A DNA stretch of 64,000 nucleotides from an uncultured Clostridia bacterium (GTDB lineage: Bacteria; Bacillota; Clostridia; Oscillospirales; Ruminococcaceae), in the NCBI GenBank assembly GCA_947629335.1, contig CANRDI010000003.1, positions 1 to 64,000 of the forward strand, read 5' to 3'. Position numbers and translations under genes: made by a program. Positions 8,491 through 58,841 of this stretch are shown here, piece by piece. Positions within the stretch are counted from its first letter, which is position 1. The number at the start of each line of letters is the position of its first letter. Under the pieces are notes generated by a model. That model had not been told where the DNA came from and did not search any database. It saw only the letters and a program-made list of their open reading frames with translations.

Positions 8491-9420
8491 AAGTTTTTTG
8501 CGAATTGTTTTGGAGGAAAACTTTTGAAAAAGTTTTCCCCCAAGCCCCCTTTCAAAACTTTTATGTAACGTGCTGTAAGGGAAAACGTTTTTGCTCTCCG
8601 ACCGCCGCGCAAGCGGCGGTACATAAGTTTTTTGAAGGAGAGTCCGGAGAGGAAACTTTTTTTCAAAAAAGTTTCCTCTCCGGTCGCGGCTTTAGCCGCG
8701 AAACTTGCGCGAGCAAGGCGCTAAAGGGTGCGGGGAAAACAAGAGTTTTCCCCGCATTGAGATTTTCAAAATGAAATTTTGAAAATCTCAATCTGCTGGA
8801 GGGGGAGCGGGGGAACCGGCAGGTTCCCTCCGCGGTTTGGTTTTTCCACAGTGAGGGGCAAGCGGAAAACAAAACGGTTGTGTGGCGAAAGTTTTTGATT
8901 TTTTATTGGGGAAAAACTTTTATGTAACTTGCTGTAAGGGAAAAGCGCTTTTACTCTCCGACTGCCGCACAAGCGGCAGCACATAAGTTTTTTGAATTTT
9001 TTTGGGGAAAAACTTTTGAAAAAGTTTTCCCCCAAACCCCTTTTCAAAACTTTTATGTAACGTGCTGTAAGGGAAAAGCACTTTCACTCTCCGACCGCCG
9101 CGCAAGCGGCGATACATGAGTTTTTTTCGAATTGTTTTGGGGGAAAACTTTTGAAAAAGTTTTCCCCCAAACCCCCTTTCAAAACTTTTATGTAACGTGC
9201 TGTAAGGAAAAACGTTTTCGGTCTCCGACCGCGCAGCAAGGCGCGATACATGAGTTTTTTGCGAATTTTTTTGGGGGGAAAACTTTTGAAAAAGTTTTCC
9301 CCCAAACCCCTTTTCAAAACTTTTATGTAACGTGCTGTAAGGGTAAAGCACTTTCACTCTCCGACTGCCCCACTAAAACTTTTTCTATATTATACCACAA
9401 CCCTCACCGATTGTCAAGAC
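8491..9420. repeat. Mosaic hairpin repeat cluster 3 (about 136-bp tandem units)
   Basis: About 930 gene-free bases between thiN and glnN. The hairpin GGGGAAAACTTTT/AAAAGTTTTCCCC recurs at about 8513, 9003, 9137 and 9274. Each copy is followed by CAAAACTTTTATGTAACGTG, then by CTGTAAGGGAAAA, then by a short GCCGC-GCAA-GCGGC stem. The 9000-9360 copies have a period near 136 bases. Between 8640 and 8880 lie the larger modules shared with cluster 1, including the 17-bp stem at 8756-8792. All ORFs called here (8478-9455) are translations of these units, which explains their near-identical peptides such as KSFEKGFGGKLFQKF. Confidence 0.88.
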
Positions 9421-24320: not shown

Positions 24321-24349
24321 TTGCAATTTATACAAAAATATGGTACAAT
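24321..24349 (+). promoter_or_regulatory. Promoter of the palindromic element upstream of comM
   Basis: TTGCAA at 24321-24326, 17-bp spacer, TACAAT at 24344-24349 with a TG two bases before the box (extended -10). The palindrome AATAATTGC, AGA, GCAATTATT begins inside the -10 box, so start-site DNA is palindromic. Confidence 0.7.
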
Positions 24350-24475
24350 AATTGCAGAGCAATTATTATAGATTTAAATGCCTTGCGCATACGCAAAATT
24401 TTTTTCAAAATTTTGCTCCGCGCATATCGGCAAATTATATCATAAATTCTTGCGAATTTATGATATAATAAAAAA
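24347..24475 (+). repeat. Palindromic promoter element, single divergent copy (comM leader)
   Basis: It shares its plan with the 106-bp units at 46191-46627: palindrome with AGA centre (24347-24367), TAGATTTAAATGCC, an inner hairpin, ATCGGCAAA, then the stem TTATATCATAAATTC-TTGC-GAATTTATGATATAA. The inner hairpin here is GCAAAATTTT/AAAATTTTGC instead of the sequence in the array, and each stem is perfect although its sequence differs. It probably forms the 5' leader of comM. Confidence 0.75.
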
Positions 24476-24631: not shown

Positions 24632-26158
24632 ATGTTCAGCAAGATAAACAGCGTAGGTCTTTTCGGTCTTAACGCTTTTCCGGTCACGGTAGAAGCGAGC
24701 ATTTCCATGGGACAGCCTGTTTTTGACATTGTGGGGCTTCCCGATATAGCTGTACAGGAAAGCAAGGCAAGAATACGCGCTGTTCTCGGACAACTCGGTC
24801 TAAAGCTGCTGAATGGGAGAGTTACGGTAAATTTAGCTCCCGCGAGCGTAAAAAAGATAGGTTCTATGTTTGATTTGCCGATAATGATTGCACTTATGAA
24901 ACTTGGCAGAGTGATAGACTGTGATCTTGAAGATTCGGCGTTTATTGGTGAGATGTCGCTTGACGGGAGAATTGCGCATATAAACGGCGCTCTCAGTATG
25001 ACTTTGACCGCCGCACAAAACGGCATAAAGCGCCTTTTTCTCCCTAAAGCAAACGCAAAAGAGGCTTCTGCGGCGGACGGTATCGAGGTCTACGGGATTG
25101 AACACATAACCGAGATCATCGACTTTTTCTGCGGCAGCAAAACGCTTACGCCCGAACCGCGATACATTCCGACAGCGGAAAAACTTGTATATCGTGAGGA
25201 TTTTGCAGATGTAATGGGGCAAAGTGCCGCGAAAAAAGCTATAGAGGTTGCAGCCGCGGGTTCTCATAACATTCTTATGCTCGGACCGCCCGGTTCGGGA
25301 AAGTCGATGCTCGCAAAGCGCATACCCTCGATACTTCCGAGAATAACCTTTGAAGAGAGCATTGAAACGACGCAGATACATTCCATAGCCGGCATTATAA
25401 ATCCCAAAGACCCTCTTGTGACAACTCGTCCTTTTCGTCCCGTAAGCCATACGATAAGCGGCGCAGGACTTATCGGAGGAGGAACTGTTCCGCGTCCCGG
25501 CGAAATATCTCTCGCACATAACGGGGTTTTATTCTTGGACGAGCTTCCGGAATTTGACCGAAGAACACTTGAAACTTTAAGACAGCCTCTTGAAAACAGC
25601 GAGATCGTCATTTCACGCGCGAGCGGTTCTGTAAGATATCCGTGCGACGTTATGCTTGTGGCGGCGATGAACCCTTGTCCGTGCGGAAATTTCGGCAATC
25701 CGAAAAAGAAATGCACCTGTTCGGAAAAAGCGGTCACGATGTACTTAAACAAAATTTCACAGCCTGTTCTTGACAGAATTGACATTCAGATAGAGATAAA
25801 ACCCGTAGAGTATGATGAACTTTCAAACCGCCGCGCACAAGAGACCTCGGCGCAGATTGCCGAAAGGGTACAGCGCGCCCGCGATATACAGGCGGAGCGC
25901 TTTAAAGGAACGGGTATAAAATCCAACAGCCGCATAACTTCCGATATTATTGCCGAGGTGTGTCGGCTTACACCTGACGCGGACGAGATGATGAAAGCGG
26001 CGTTTGATAAGCTCGGTCTTTCGGCACGCGCCTACGACCGAATTTTAAAGGTCGCAAGAACATGCGCCGATCTTATTGGAGAAAAAGATATAGACAGATC
26101 AAGTATTTCTCAGGCAATAAGTTTCAGAAGTTTGGACAGGAAGTACTGGAACAGGTAA
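24632..26158 (+). CDS. comM: YifB/ComM-family Mg-chelatase-like AAA+ ATPase
   Basis: 508 residues, the usual size. The N-terminal S5-like domain starts at KINSVGLFGLNAFPVTVEA. The AAA+ Mg-chelatase core has Walker A GPPGSGKSMLAKRIPSIL, the FLDELPEF Walker B block, and the AMNPCPCGNF zinc-like motif. The C-terminal domain ends with SYSQAISFRSLDR-like residues. ComM is a hexameric helicase that promotes branch migration during natural transformation; in non-competent bacteria the role is unsettled. GAGAGG precedes the ATG. It is driven by the unusual palindromic promoter about 290 bases upstream. It stands alone here; dprA and topA, its frequent neighbours, are absent. Confidence 0.94.
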   Translation: MFSKINSVGLFGLNAFPVTVEASISMGQPVFDIVGLPDIAVQESKARIRAVLGQLGLKLLNGRVTVNLAPASVKKIGSMFDLPIMIALMKLGRVIDCDLEDSAFIGEMSLDGRIAHINGALSMTLTAAQNGIKRLFLPKANAKEASAADGIEVYGIEHITEIIDFFCGSKTLTPEPRYIPTAEKLVYREDFADVMGQSAAKKAIEVAAAGSHNILMLGPPGSGKSMLAKRIPSILPRITFEESIETTQIHSIAGIINPKDPLVTTRPFRPVSHTISGAGLIGGGTVPRPGEISLAHNGVLFLDELPEFDRRTLETLRQPLENSEIVISRASGSVRYPCDVMLVAAMNPCPCGNFGNPKKKCTCSEKAVTMYLNKISQPVLDRIDIQIEIKPVEYDELSNRRAQETSAQIAERVQRARDIQAERFKGTGIKSNSRITSDIIAEVCRLTPDADEMMKAAFDKLGLSARAYDRILKVARTCADLIGEKDIDRSSISQAISFRSLDRKYWNR

Positions 26159-26348
26159 TAATATTCTGCTGAACTAAGAATTTTTATTCAGTATAAAAAA
26201 CTGTCGATAATTGACAGTGTATGCTGTTTCGGCGCATCGGGTCAGCAGACGAACATATTTTTGCACTTGGCGGCAATGGTTTTTTCAAACAGCTAAAAGT
26301 GCGGAGACCAAAAGAAAATTGCCGAATAAAAAATTATTGCAGATAGGG

Positions 26349-26850
26349 GTCGCGCCGCGAGAGCCGTTCCTCGCTCCGCTTTCACTTCGTTCAAGCGGGA
26401 ACTCGTCACGGCGTGCCTTTTTCAGCAGAGCTGAAAAAGGCACAGCAGGTGAACAGAAAAAAATCATACAGAAATGGTTGCGCCGCGAAAGCCGTTCCTC
26501 GCCCCGCTTTCACTTCGTTCAAGCGGGAACTTGTCACGGCGTGCCTTTTTCAGCAGAGCTGAAAAAGGCACAGCAGGCGAACAGAAAAAATCATACAGAA
26601 ATGGTCGCGCCGCGAAAGCCGTTCCTCGCCCCGCTTTCACTTCGTTCAAGCGGGAACTCGTCACGGCGTGCCTTTTTCAGCAGAGCTGAAAAAGGCACAG
26701 CAGGCGAACAGAAAAAATTATACAGAAAGTGTCGCGCCGCTAAAGCCGTTCCTCGCCCCGCTTTCACTTCGTTCAAGCGGGAGCTCGTCACGGTGTGCCT
26801 TTTTCAGCAGAGCTGAAAAAGGCACAGCAGGCGAACAGAAAAATTTATAT
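26349..26850. repeat. Four tandem copies of a 127-bp repeat before malQ
   Basis: Units begin at about 26349, 26477, 26604 and 26731 (spacings 128, 127, 127). Each contains the stem CCCGCTT/AAGCGGG and a 14-bp perfect hairpin GTGCCTTTTTCAGC, loop AGA, followed by AACAGAAAAA. Copies differ at few positions. The related single module is present twice at 37236-37540. ORFs at 26211-26924 are repeat translations. The rest of 26159-26348 shows a half copy of the short inverted repeat (GACAGTGTATGCTG at about 26213) and nothing else. Confidence 0.92.
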
Positions 26851-32708: not shown

Positions 32709-33675
32709 AGGCAAGAAAAAAGTCGGACAACGTATCCATTACTGCACGTTACATAAAAGTTTTGAAAAGGGGTTTGGGGGAAAACTTTTTTAAAAGTTTT
32801 CCCCCAAAAAAATTCAAAAAACTTATGTACCGCGCCTTACGGCGCGGTCGGAAAATGGAAGCGCTTTTCTCTTACAGCAAGTTACATAAAAGTTTTGGAA
32901 AAGGGGTCAAGGGGGAAAACCTTTTTTAAAAGGTTTTCCCCCTTGCGGTTTTTTGCTTTGTTATTTGTTGCTTTGCTCCAAACGTACGCACCCGTTTAAT
33001 TTTCCGTTTACTTTATACTGTGGGAAAACCAAACCGCGGAGGGAACCTGCCGGTTCCCCCGCTCCCCCTCCAGCGGATTGCCGTTTCAAAACAAGGTTTT
33101 GAAACGGCAATGCGGGGAAAACTCTTGTTTTCCCCGCACCCAAGATAAAAAGCCATAGGCTTTTTATCTGATGCGCTTTGCTTGCGCAAGTTTCGCGGCT
33201 TCGCCGCGACCAGAGGGAAAAACTTTTTTGAAAAAAAGTTTTTCCCTCTGGACTCTCTTTTCAAAAAACTTATGTATCGCGCCTTGCGGTGCGGTCGGAG
33301 AATGGAAGCGCTTTTCTCTTACAGCACGTTACATAAAAGTTTTGAAAAGGGTCTTGGGGAAAAACTTTTTTAAAAGTTTTCCCCCAAAAAAATTCAAAAA
33401 ACTTATGTATCGCGCCTTACGGCGCGGTCGGAGAATGGAAGCGCTTTTCTCTTACAGCACGTTACATAAAAGTTTTGAAAAGGGGTTTGGGGGAAAACTT
33501 TTTTAAAAGTTTTCCCCCAAAAAAATTCAATAAACTTATGTACCGCGCCTTGCGGTGCGGTTGGAGAATGGAAGCGCTTTTCCCTTACAGCAAATTACAT
33601 AAAAGTTTTGGAAAAGGGGTCAAGGGGGAAAACCTTTTTTAAAAGGTTTTCCCCCTTGCTACAACTTCACTATAA
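32709..33675. repeat. Mosaic hairpin repeat cluster 4 (inverted relative to cluster 3)
   Basis: Nearly a kilobase without a gene. Units with GGGGGAAAACTTTTT/AAAAGTTTTCCCCC, CTTATGTACCGCGCC, GCGCTTTTCTCTTACAGCA and GTTACATAAAAGTTTTG repeat from 32740, 32880, 33240, 33350, 33460 and 33590. The 32990-33240 part is cluster 1 in reverse, but the stem that reads ATTGAGATTTTCAAAAT there is replaced at 33077-33111 by ATTGCCGTTTCAAAAC and a perfectly matching partner. Both convergent neighbours (peptidase and telA) end against it, and several hairpins could act as terminators. Confidence 0.88.
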
Positions 33676-37041: not shown

Positions 37042-37186
37042 CTCAAACGACCGTCCTTTGCCATTAAATAGAATATAAATATTATTTTCAGCTTTATAAA
37101 ACCTCTTTGAAAATGAGATTTTTCTCGGAGGCTGTGTATTCCGCCCAAACAGGTAAATAAGCTTCTTAACCTCAAACGTTCTTAAA

Positions 37187-37558
37187 AATCTCAAAAGCCG
37201 AGTTTTCCGTATTCCGAAACATTTCGCTTTACCAAAACATCTTTCATAAGCCGCTCCTCGCCCCGCTTTCACTTCGTTCAAGCGGGAACTCGTCGCGGCG
37301 TGCCTTTTTCAGCGCAAACTGAAAAAGGCACAGCAAAAGCAAAAGTTATTCTTCTACCTGATTAAAACCAAACTTTATTAAAATTCTCAAAAGCCGAGTT
37401 TTTCGTATTCCGAAGCATTTCGCTTTACCAAAACATCTCTCATAAGCCGCTCCTTGCCCCGCTTTCACTTCGTTCAAGCGGGAACTCGTCGCGGCGTGCC
37501 TTTTTCAGCGCAAGCTGAAAAAGGCACAGCAAAAGCAAAAAGTTATTCTTCTACCTGA
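37187..37558. repeat. Two 196-bp tandem copies between the YceG-like gene and the TerD fusion
   Basis: The segment with TCAAAAGCCG, CCGAAGCATTTCGC, the CCCGCTT/AAGCGGG stem and GTGCCTTTTTCAG recurs after 196 bases. The second copy ends in the last codons of the TerD-fusion gene (TTATTCTTCTACCTGA), and the same bases stand at the end of the first copy as a non-coding remnant. The duplication therefore took in the gene's 3' tail. The stem-loop core matches the 127-bp repeats at 26349-26850. About 145 bases (37042-37186) beyond the units show no feature. Confidence 0.85.
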
Positions 37559-46164: not shown

Positions 46165-46193
46165 TTGATTTTTTTTTAACAATATGATAAAAT
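46165..46193 (+). promoter_or_regulatory. First promoter of the palindromic array before the GtrA gene
   Basis: TTGATT at 46165-46170, 17-bp spacer, TAAAAT at 46188-46193 with TG in the extended -10 position. It is back-to-back with the Ter promoter, about 40 bases apart. The first palindrome of the array starts inside its -10 box. Confidence 0.7.
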
Positions 46194-46627
46194 AATCGCA
46201 GAGCGATTATTTTAGATCTAAATGCCTCGCACATTCGTTCGCTCCGCTCACTCCGTGCGTATCGGCAAATTATATCATATCCTGCGGATATGATATAATA
46301 ATCGCAGAGCGATTATTTTAGATCTAAATGCCTCGCACATTCGTTCGCTCCGCTCACTCCGTGCGTATCGGCAAATTATATCATATCCTGCGGATATGAT
46401 ATAATAATCGCAGAGCGATTATTTTAGATCTAAATGCCTCGCACATTCGTTCGCTTCGCTCACTTCGTGCGTATCGGCAAATTATATCATATCCTGCGGA
46501 TATGATATAATAATCGCAGAGCGATTATTTTAAATCTCTAAATGCCTCGCACATTCGTTCGCTTCGCTCACTCCGCGCGTATCAGCAAATTGTATCATAT
46601 ACTGCGGAGTATGATATAATAATAAGT
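46191..46627 (+). repeat. Four-unit, 106-bp tandem array of palindromic promoter elements
   Basis: Units start at 46191, 46297, 46403 and 46509, exactly 106 bases apart, with a closing part at 46618. Each unit is: palindrome AATAATCGC, AGA, GCGATTATT; TTTAGATCTAAA (palindrome); a GCC-GCAC...GTGC-GGC stem; then the 13-bp stem TTATATCATATCC-TGC-GGATATGATATAA. Each unit ends in TGATATAAT, an extended -10 box, immediately before the next palindrome. The last closes as GTATGATATAATAATAAG with no palindrome and reads toward the GtrA gene. Whole units are conserved, so it is not a CRISPR array. Confidence 0.9.
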
Positions 46628-58740: not shown

Positions 58741-58800
58741 TTGCAATTTTGAATTTAATATGATATAATAATCGCAGAGCGATTATTAAGCGATTATTAT
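58741..58800 (+). promoter_or_regulatory. Palindromic promoter element upstream of hpt-ftsH (short form)
   Basis: TTGCAA at 58741-58746, 17-bp spacer, TATAAT at 58764-58769 with TG two bases before the -10 box, then the palindrome AATAATCGC, AGA, GCGATTATT at 58767-58787, beginning inside the -10 box. The remainder of the 106-bp unit is absent; only a second GCGATTATT copy follows. The layout equals those before comM and the GtrA gene. Confidence 0.75.
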
Positions 58801-58841
58801 ATGTTTTCAATACTTCTTTAGAGATAGGAGTAATAAAGAAT

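Follow-up and report, generated by a model that had tools for sequence, protein, structure and literature searches.

A three-hairpin repeat inserted behind promoter -10 boxes in Oscillospirales, examined at comM

Upstream of a comM-like gene, the window (the whole stretch of 64,000 nucleotides that was analysed) carries a series of palindromes. The locus raises the question of whether these palindromes serve the regulation of comM or were inserted there as mobile DNA.

The comM copy and its host promoter

The first-pass annotation took 24321-24475 for a diverged copy of the unit that is repeated in an array elsewhere in the window, driving comM and carrying compensating changes in every stem. 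The comM copy and the array are indeed members of the same family, and all three stems of the comM copy are perfect, as claimed, at the positions given in Table 1. The first hairpin (H1) also differs between the two, reading AATAATTGC/GCAATTATT at comM and AATAATCGC/GCGATTATT in the array. Other parts of the description need adjustment. The last stem, in hairpin H3, differs from the array in its loop-proximal part, but its outer 9 bp (TTATATCAT/ATGATATAA) are identical to those of the array. The inner hairpin, regarded as new, is perfect but not specific to comM; it marks a second subfamily (AAAATTTT) found at several other loci of the window's genome, including L013, L016, L023, L028, and L030. 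Moreover, positions 24321-24349 (TTGCAA, 17 bp, TACAAT) are the native comM promoter and lie outside the element.

Folded as single-stranded DNA, the comM stretch forms exactly H1, H2, and H3, with an energy of -32.8 kcal/mol against -14.5 +/- 2.8 for shuffled sequences (z -6.6). The 3' arm of H1 terminates in ATTATA (24365-24370), which is complementary to TATAAT. The right end of the element, termed X, regenerates an extended -10 box and supplies a new TGNTATAAT.

Table 1 Features of the comM locus and of related loci in the window
Feature	Position	Strand	Remark
Native comM promoter, -35 box (TTGCAA); not part of the element	24321..24326	+	Promoter shared by element-free relatives
-10 box of the native comM promoter (TACAAT), left partner of H1	24344..24349	+	
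Inserted element, 120 bp, AAAATTTT inner-hairpin subfamily	24350..24469	+	Missing at comM in relatives; repeat-family match 74%
Hairpin H1, AATAATTGC-AGA-GCAATTATT + ATA	24347..24370	+	Stem proper 24347-24367
Core with hairpin H2 (TGCC...GGCA)	24379..24432	+	Inner GCAAAATTTT/AAAATTTTGC at 24393-24416
Hairpin H3: X' ATTATATCATA 24434-24444, loop, X TATGATATAAT 24459-24469	24434..24469	+	Stem TTATATCATAAATTC-TTGC-GAATTTATGATATAA perfect at 24435-24468
comM-like Mg-chelatase/AAA+ gene, downstream of the element	24632..26158	+	ORF; orthologues in 30/31 genomes
Promoter TTGATT-17-TAAAAT before the array	46165..46193	+	
Four tandem units from the other subfamily of the element, ahead of a GtrA-like gene	46194..46620	+	Array 46182-46623
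hpt promoter TTGCAA-17-TATAAT	58741..58769	+	
Decayed element remnant in the hpt leader, H1 only	58770..58803	+	Decayed-copy match 58758-58787

The comM orthologues and their upstream regions were gathered from relatives for an empty-site comparison. In at least nine genomes of the genus (G006, G013, G002, G005, G007, G010, G016, G018, and G011), the comM promoter is free of the element: only a short leader separates the promoter (e.g. TTGCAATTCATACAAAAATATGGTAAAAT in G006) from comM. In the window's genome, 120 bp separate the comM -10 box from that leader. The TTGCAA-17-TAxAAT promoter is conserved in the relatives without the element, the closest of which have TAAAAT as the comM -10 box. 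Since the promoter is present without the element, it belongs to the host: the element has entered a conserved promoter directly behind its -10 box, and the comparison does not support the proposal that it drives comM. The extended -10 box at the right end (TATGATATAAT) could, judging by its sequence, act as a second start for comM.

In G001 (L095) and G009 (L096), a different palindromic repeat (GACTGTCGATAAAGCC / TTAGGCTGTCGATAAAGCC...) is located upstream of comM, directly behind the same -10 box. At L095 it comes after an H1-like remnant, indicating that the comM -10 box has been struck more than once.

Insertion directly 3' of promoter -10 boxes

The element family occupies about 25 loci in the window's genome, with many decayed copies, and is present in 16 of 24 genus relatives and in one genome of another family. 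In GTDB genomes, a pattern consisting of the -10 box and H1 had more than 118 matches, which by their titles come almost entirely from Oscillospirales or other Clostridia; most of them have the same three-hairpin layout. Two Anaerotruncus genomes contribute 77 and 101 matches, the 77 being in the complete genome of A. colihominis DSM 17241. The family is therefore widespread in Oscillospirales. Among 2.9 million viral contigs there was one match, which gives no indication of phage carriage. Rfam 15 returned no match in the window at the gathering score, and a tRNA scan was negative.

The joined flanks of eight further element loci were searched against ten genomes, and five further promoters with empty sites were found, with 94-100% identity at the clearest. 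The typA empty site has 99.2% identity over 130 bp and is element-free in G002, and also in G000 (the window's genome) and G006. The empty site at an aminotransferase gene is 100% identical in G002 and 95-98% identical in two other genomes; that at smpB is 94% identical, and two more promoters range from 83 to 94%. The empty sites are precise at typA and the aminotransferase gene and near-precise at the others, with the insertion point 3' of one short, constant sequence. Where the comparison is clean, the insert starts right after TATAAT and finishes with TATAAT, with no bases lost. The element thus enters existing sigma-A promoters immediately 3' of their -10 box and leaves a -10 box on both sides, although the left and right copies often differ. 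H1 always adjoins the -10 box, so the orientation is fixed relative to it. Clear terminal inverted repeats are absent at the insert ends defined by the empty sites. Copies identical over 120 bp are present at different promoters in G005 and in G007/G010. Because copies with 100% identity occupy different promoters in close genomes, the movement is recent.

In the genus, most invaded sites have the layout of a working promoter. Counted by hand, with mirror-image matches left out and with at least four of six bases required for a -35 box, 27 of 32 leftmost units in the genus have a -35 box in non-repeated DNA, separated from the -10 box by exactly 17 bp, compared with 13 of 87 TATAAT in the window. 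In a wider set of 67 units, partly pattern-selected with TGNTATAAT, the -35 box is found at a spacer of 17 in 31, and in at most 6 at any other spacing. What matters seems to be a working promoter rather than one hexamer, given that the invaded -10 box is TACAAT at comM and ssrA and TAAAAT at the array. However, TGNTATAAT is in itself nearly always a promoter, and in Anaerotruncus a good -35 box is present at 17 bp in 5 and at 16 bp in 3 of 19 listed units, which include a few mirror-image or internal ones. With this weaker -35 signal, the target in Anaerotruncus may simply be TGNTATAAT, and targeting may be by sequence alone.

In the window's genome, 22 of 23 loci are upstream of a co-oriented gene. 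The invaded genes are unrelated (comM, hpt, typA, smpB, ssrA, groES, and a tRNA). At ssrA, which encodes tmRNA, several genomes carry the element behind the -10 box (L060, L072, L263, and L266). Two further loci, L053 and L069, share the H2 core but have much different, longer H1 and H3 palindromes and apparently other target sequences; they are possibly relatives with a different target.

Symmetry of the stems and match with the target

In accordance with the proposal that the pairing or symmetry of the stems is under selection, a covariation check over 44 distinct copies from many genomes indicates that pairing is kept through changes on both sides. The script that chose the copies required complementary TATAAT ends, and most loci had been found with a pattern in which part of H1 was fixed. 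In this alignment, 97.3% of the cells in H1 and H3 are paired, and 13 of 24 pairs have changed on both sides. There are 85 double-changed cells, compared with 20.3 +/- 4.3 in shuffles that ignore the relatedness of the copies (0 of 500 shuffles reach 85) and at most 14 in slid controls. Two H1 pairs that the pattern leaves free are Watson-Crick in 78 and 84 of 91 cases, against 36.6 and 56.3 after shuffling. One-sided (G-U) changes amount to 3 cells, all at one pair, leaving 23 of 24 pairs with none. Selected RNA stems normally show G-U intermediates. In addition, the 5' arm of H1 includes the host -10 box, which makes up half of H1 and lies upstream of the expected transcription start. The symmetry is therefore maintained, but it acts at the level of DNA, and a selected RNA structure is not indicated.

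Directly beyond the left end of the element lies the -10 box, to which the 3' arm of H1 (ATTATA and its neighbours) is complementary; at the right end, TATAAT has its complement in X', the first arm of H3. Of 67 units, 45 show agreement between the H1 arm and the left flank in the base preceding TATAAT (28.7 expected). The left and right X agree at this base in 57 units (33.5 expected), and agreement within H3 is seen in 66. Because the relatedness of the units confounds these figures, the arm-target count was repeated within two groups. In the clade of G002, G005, G007, and G010, 4/4 non-G targets are matched by the arm, with 0/7 G targets deviating (p 0.003); in Anaerotruncus, the values are 4/7 and 0/36 (p 0.0003). 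Both counts contain linked entries (L271 and L274 are one site, and three L112 entries are one locus), without which the matches become 3/3 and about 2/5.

The typA locus illustrates the match. Its target TTGTATAAT is older than the insertion, as it is present in the element-free genomes, and the H1 arm, X', and right X of the inserted element all bear the change that matches it. There is no arm-target match at L276, L155, L176, and L188, and in the subfamily of the window's genome the arm usually continues after ATTATA with GATTT regardless of the neighbouring base. Within species, then, the H1 arm tends to match the base adjoining the invaded -10 box, in the manner that a DNA guide would. 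The match could also have been produced after insertion, by repair of imperfect palindromes.

Explanations and the search for a mover

We consider the comM feature to be probably a copy of a non-autonomous mobile element that targets -10 boxes and measures about 85-120 bp, with three hairpins. The hairpin arms would act as guides that, in DNA that is single-stranded or extruded, pair with both copies of TATAAT and thereby set the cleavage points. The excised piece would have the right TATAAT joined to its left end and would enter a new -10 box matching the arm, perhaps while RNA polymerase melts the -10 region. A recombinase acting in trans would move it. Since the right end restores TATAAT, an insertion would do little harm, and the next copy could insert behind it, so that tandem arrays arise.

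Several known systems resemble the element in part. As in IS200/IS605 members (IS608 and ISDra2) and PATEs, the left flank keeps a short constant sequence with the insertion immediately 3' of it, both ends carry subterminal hairpins (here H1 and H3), and the orientation is fixed. In IS608, guide sequences pair with the cleavage sites, decide the target, and can be re-programmed (PMC5934647). The DNA of our element is likewise complementary to its target. Unlike in IS200/IS605, the target is a promoter -10 box, the right end repeats the target sequence, and the arms form one continuous stem with the target sequence. The element would work like an IS200/IS605 member, but we do not assign it to that group, because the decisive component, the Y1 transposase (PF01797), is absent from most carriers; the genomes without it are G002, G005, G007, G010, G012, G016, G030, A. 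colihominis DSM 17241, and JM4-15. The three PF01797 copies in the window's genome have ends unrelated to those of the element, and IS200 was rejected as a partner.

In IS110/IS1111 with bridge RNA, the element sequence is complementary to target and donor, insertion is one-way, and the joined ends form a promoter-like junction. Our element is similar in its target and donor complementarity and in its one-way insertion, and its joined ends would likewise give such a junction. However, an RNA guide of this type is less likely because there are almost no G-U pairs. Transposase_20 (IS110, DEDD) is absent from 11 of 13 genomes tested, and IS110 was rejected as the mover, as the element-bearing G000, G002, G005, G007, G010, G012, and G030 lack it; a reverse transcriptase was rejected likewise, being absent from G002, G005, G007, G010, G012, and G030. 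REP sequences are short palindromes moved in trans by the Y1-type RAYT proteins. Their GTAG/CGTC tag was not seen at the element ends, and most carriers have no Y1 protein. A transposase gene flanked by the ends of our element was not found, and neither excision nor a circular form was observed. A script that looked for unpaired ends, a left and a right one separated by 250-3500 bp as in a longer autonomous version, returned nothing but a tandem array.

Correia elements of Neisseria carry sigma-70-like promoters, according to passages of the MITE literature (PMC10969869; PMC2229807). In such passages, Correia elements, RUP, and BOX (pneumococcus) resemble ours in being non-coding, multi-copy, mostly 100-200 bp long, and often upstream of genes. 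Most of them combine terminal inverted repeats with a TA motif and a target duplication. Unlike them, our element has promoter-specific one-way insertion and no clear terminal repeats. The same review passages mention promoter-carrying elements but none that inserts specifically at -10 boxes (PMC10969869; PMC2229807).

A serious rival is template switching, in replication or repair and without any transposase, between -10 boxes that share 8-11 identical bases (TGNTATAAT). The hairpin unit would be copied from a donor promoter, with stalling at the hairpins driving the switch and a switch back at the right TATAAT, and template-directed repair of imperfect palindromes would keep the stems perfect. 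The element boundaries coincide with short homology on both sides, as this scheme predicts; most genomes in which copies are recent lack Y1, IS110, and reverse transcriptase; the left and right X share their variable base more often than expected; and the upstream similarity of the typA and L278 targets extends beyond the -10 box. However, the identical copies at the aminotransferase gene and L262 share little beyond the -10 box, the matches in the two Anaerotruncus genomes are many for rare accidents, and a preference for functional promoters with a -35 box over other TATAAT is not predicted. We regard template switching as unlikely, but as a rival to be taken seriously. An ordinary MITE moved by a DDE transposase, with TATAAT as a 6-bp target duplication, would be short, non-coding, and multi-copy, with precise empty sites and TATAAT on both sides, all of which are observed, and the end hairpins in Anaerotruncus are weakly similar (CCGCAAAGCGG / CCGCGAAGCGG). 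It is nevertheless improbable, given the lack of clear terminal inverted repeats, the fixed orientation to the -10 box, and the frequent difference between the left and right copies (TACAAT/TATAAT at comM, where relatives have TAAAAT; TGA/TGG at L063). A simple target duplication is disfavoured on the same ground, left and right X being too often different. A structured cis-regulatory leader or operator, kept to regulate comM and other genes, is very improbable. It would account for the location of nearly all copies between promoter and gene, for the stable fold, and for the covariation, but orthologous promoters mostly lack the element (comM and others are empty in close relatives), the downstream genes are unrelated, many copies are decayed, G-U intermediates are almost absent, the 5' arm of H1 is in the -10 box, upstream of the expected start, and the window has no Rfam match.

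Returning to the mobile element, we can only tentatively suggest that it represents a new class of mobile DNA, one that integrates between the -10 box and the start, picks its targets by DNA-DNA pairing between arm and -10 box (perhaps melted by the polymerase), regenerates the -10 box, and is moved by a recombinase other than Y1, IS110, or reverse transcriptase. No description of the element was found in open-access full text, a search that does not in itself prove novelty. Integration specific to -10 boxes would be an unusual way of choosing targets, one by which the host gene is spared. In the common gut bacteria where it is abundant, the element lengthens the leaders of many genes, among them comM, typA, smpB, hpt, groES, and ssrA, and adds -10 boxes; it could thus influence expression and mislead predictions of promoters or riboswitches. 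The question of the mover can be addressed directly in carriers such as A. colihominis DSM 17241.

Other repeats were observed as well. All three IS200-like tnpA genes of the window's genome (L109, L110, and L111) are interrupted by one and the same small palindrome (GCATTATTCGCCTGCGGCGAATAACGC), apparently with a broken reading frame as the result. The window contains four more tandem-repeat arrays (8913-9369, 26348-26843, 33260-33655, and 37173-37558) with units of 127-196 bp, some with GGGGAAAACTTTT...AAAAGTTTTCCCC palindromes; they are other dispersed repeat families of the window's genome. In a tandem array at L198 (6215-6790, reverse strand), the internal right ends read TGGAATAAT instead of TGGTATAAT and the last one is intact, indicating that the internal -10 boxes are damaged.
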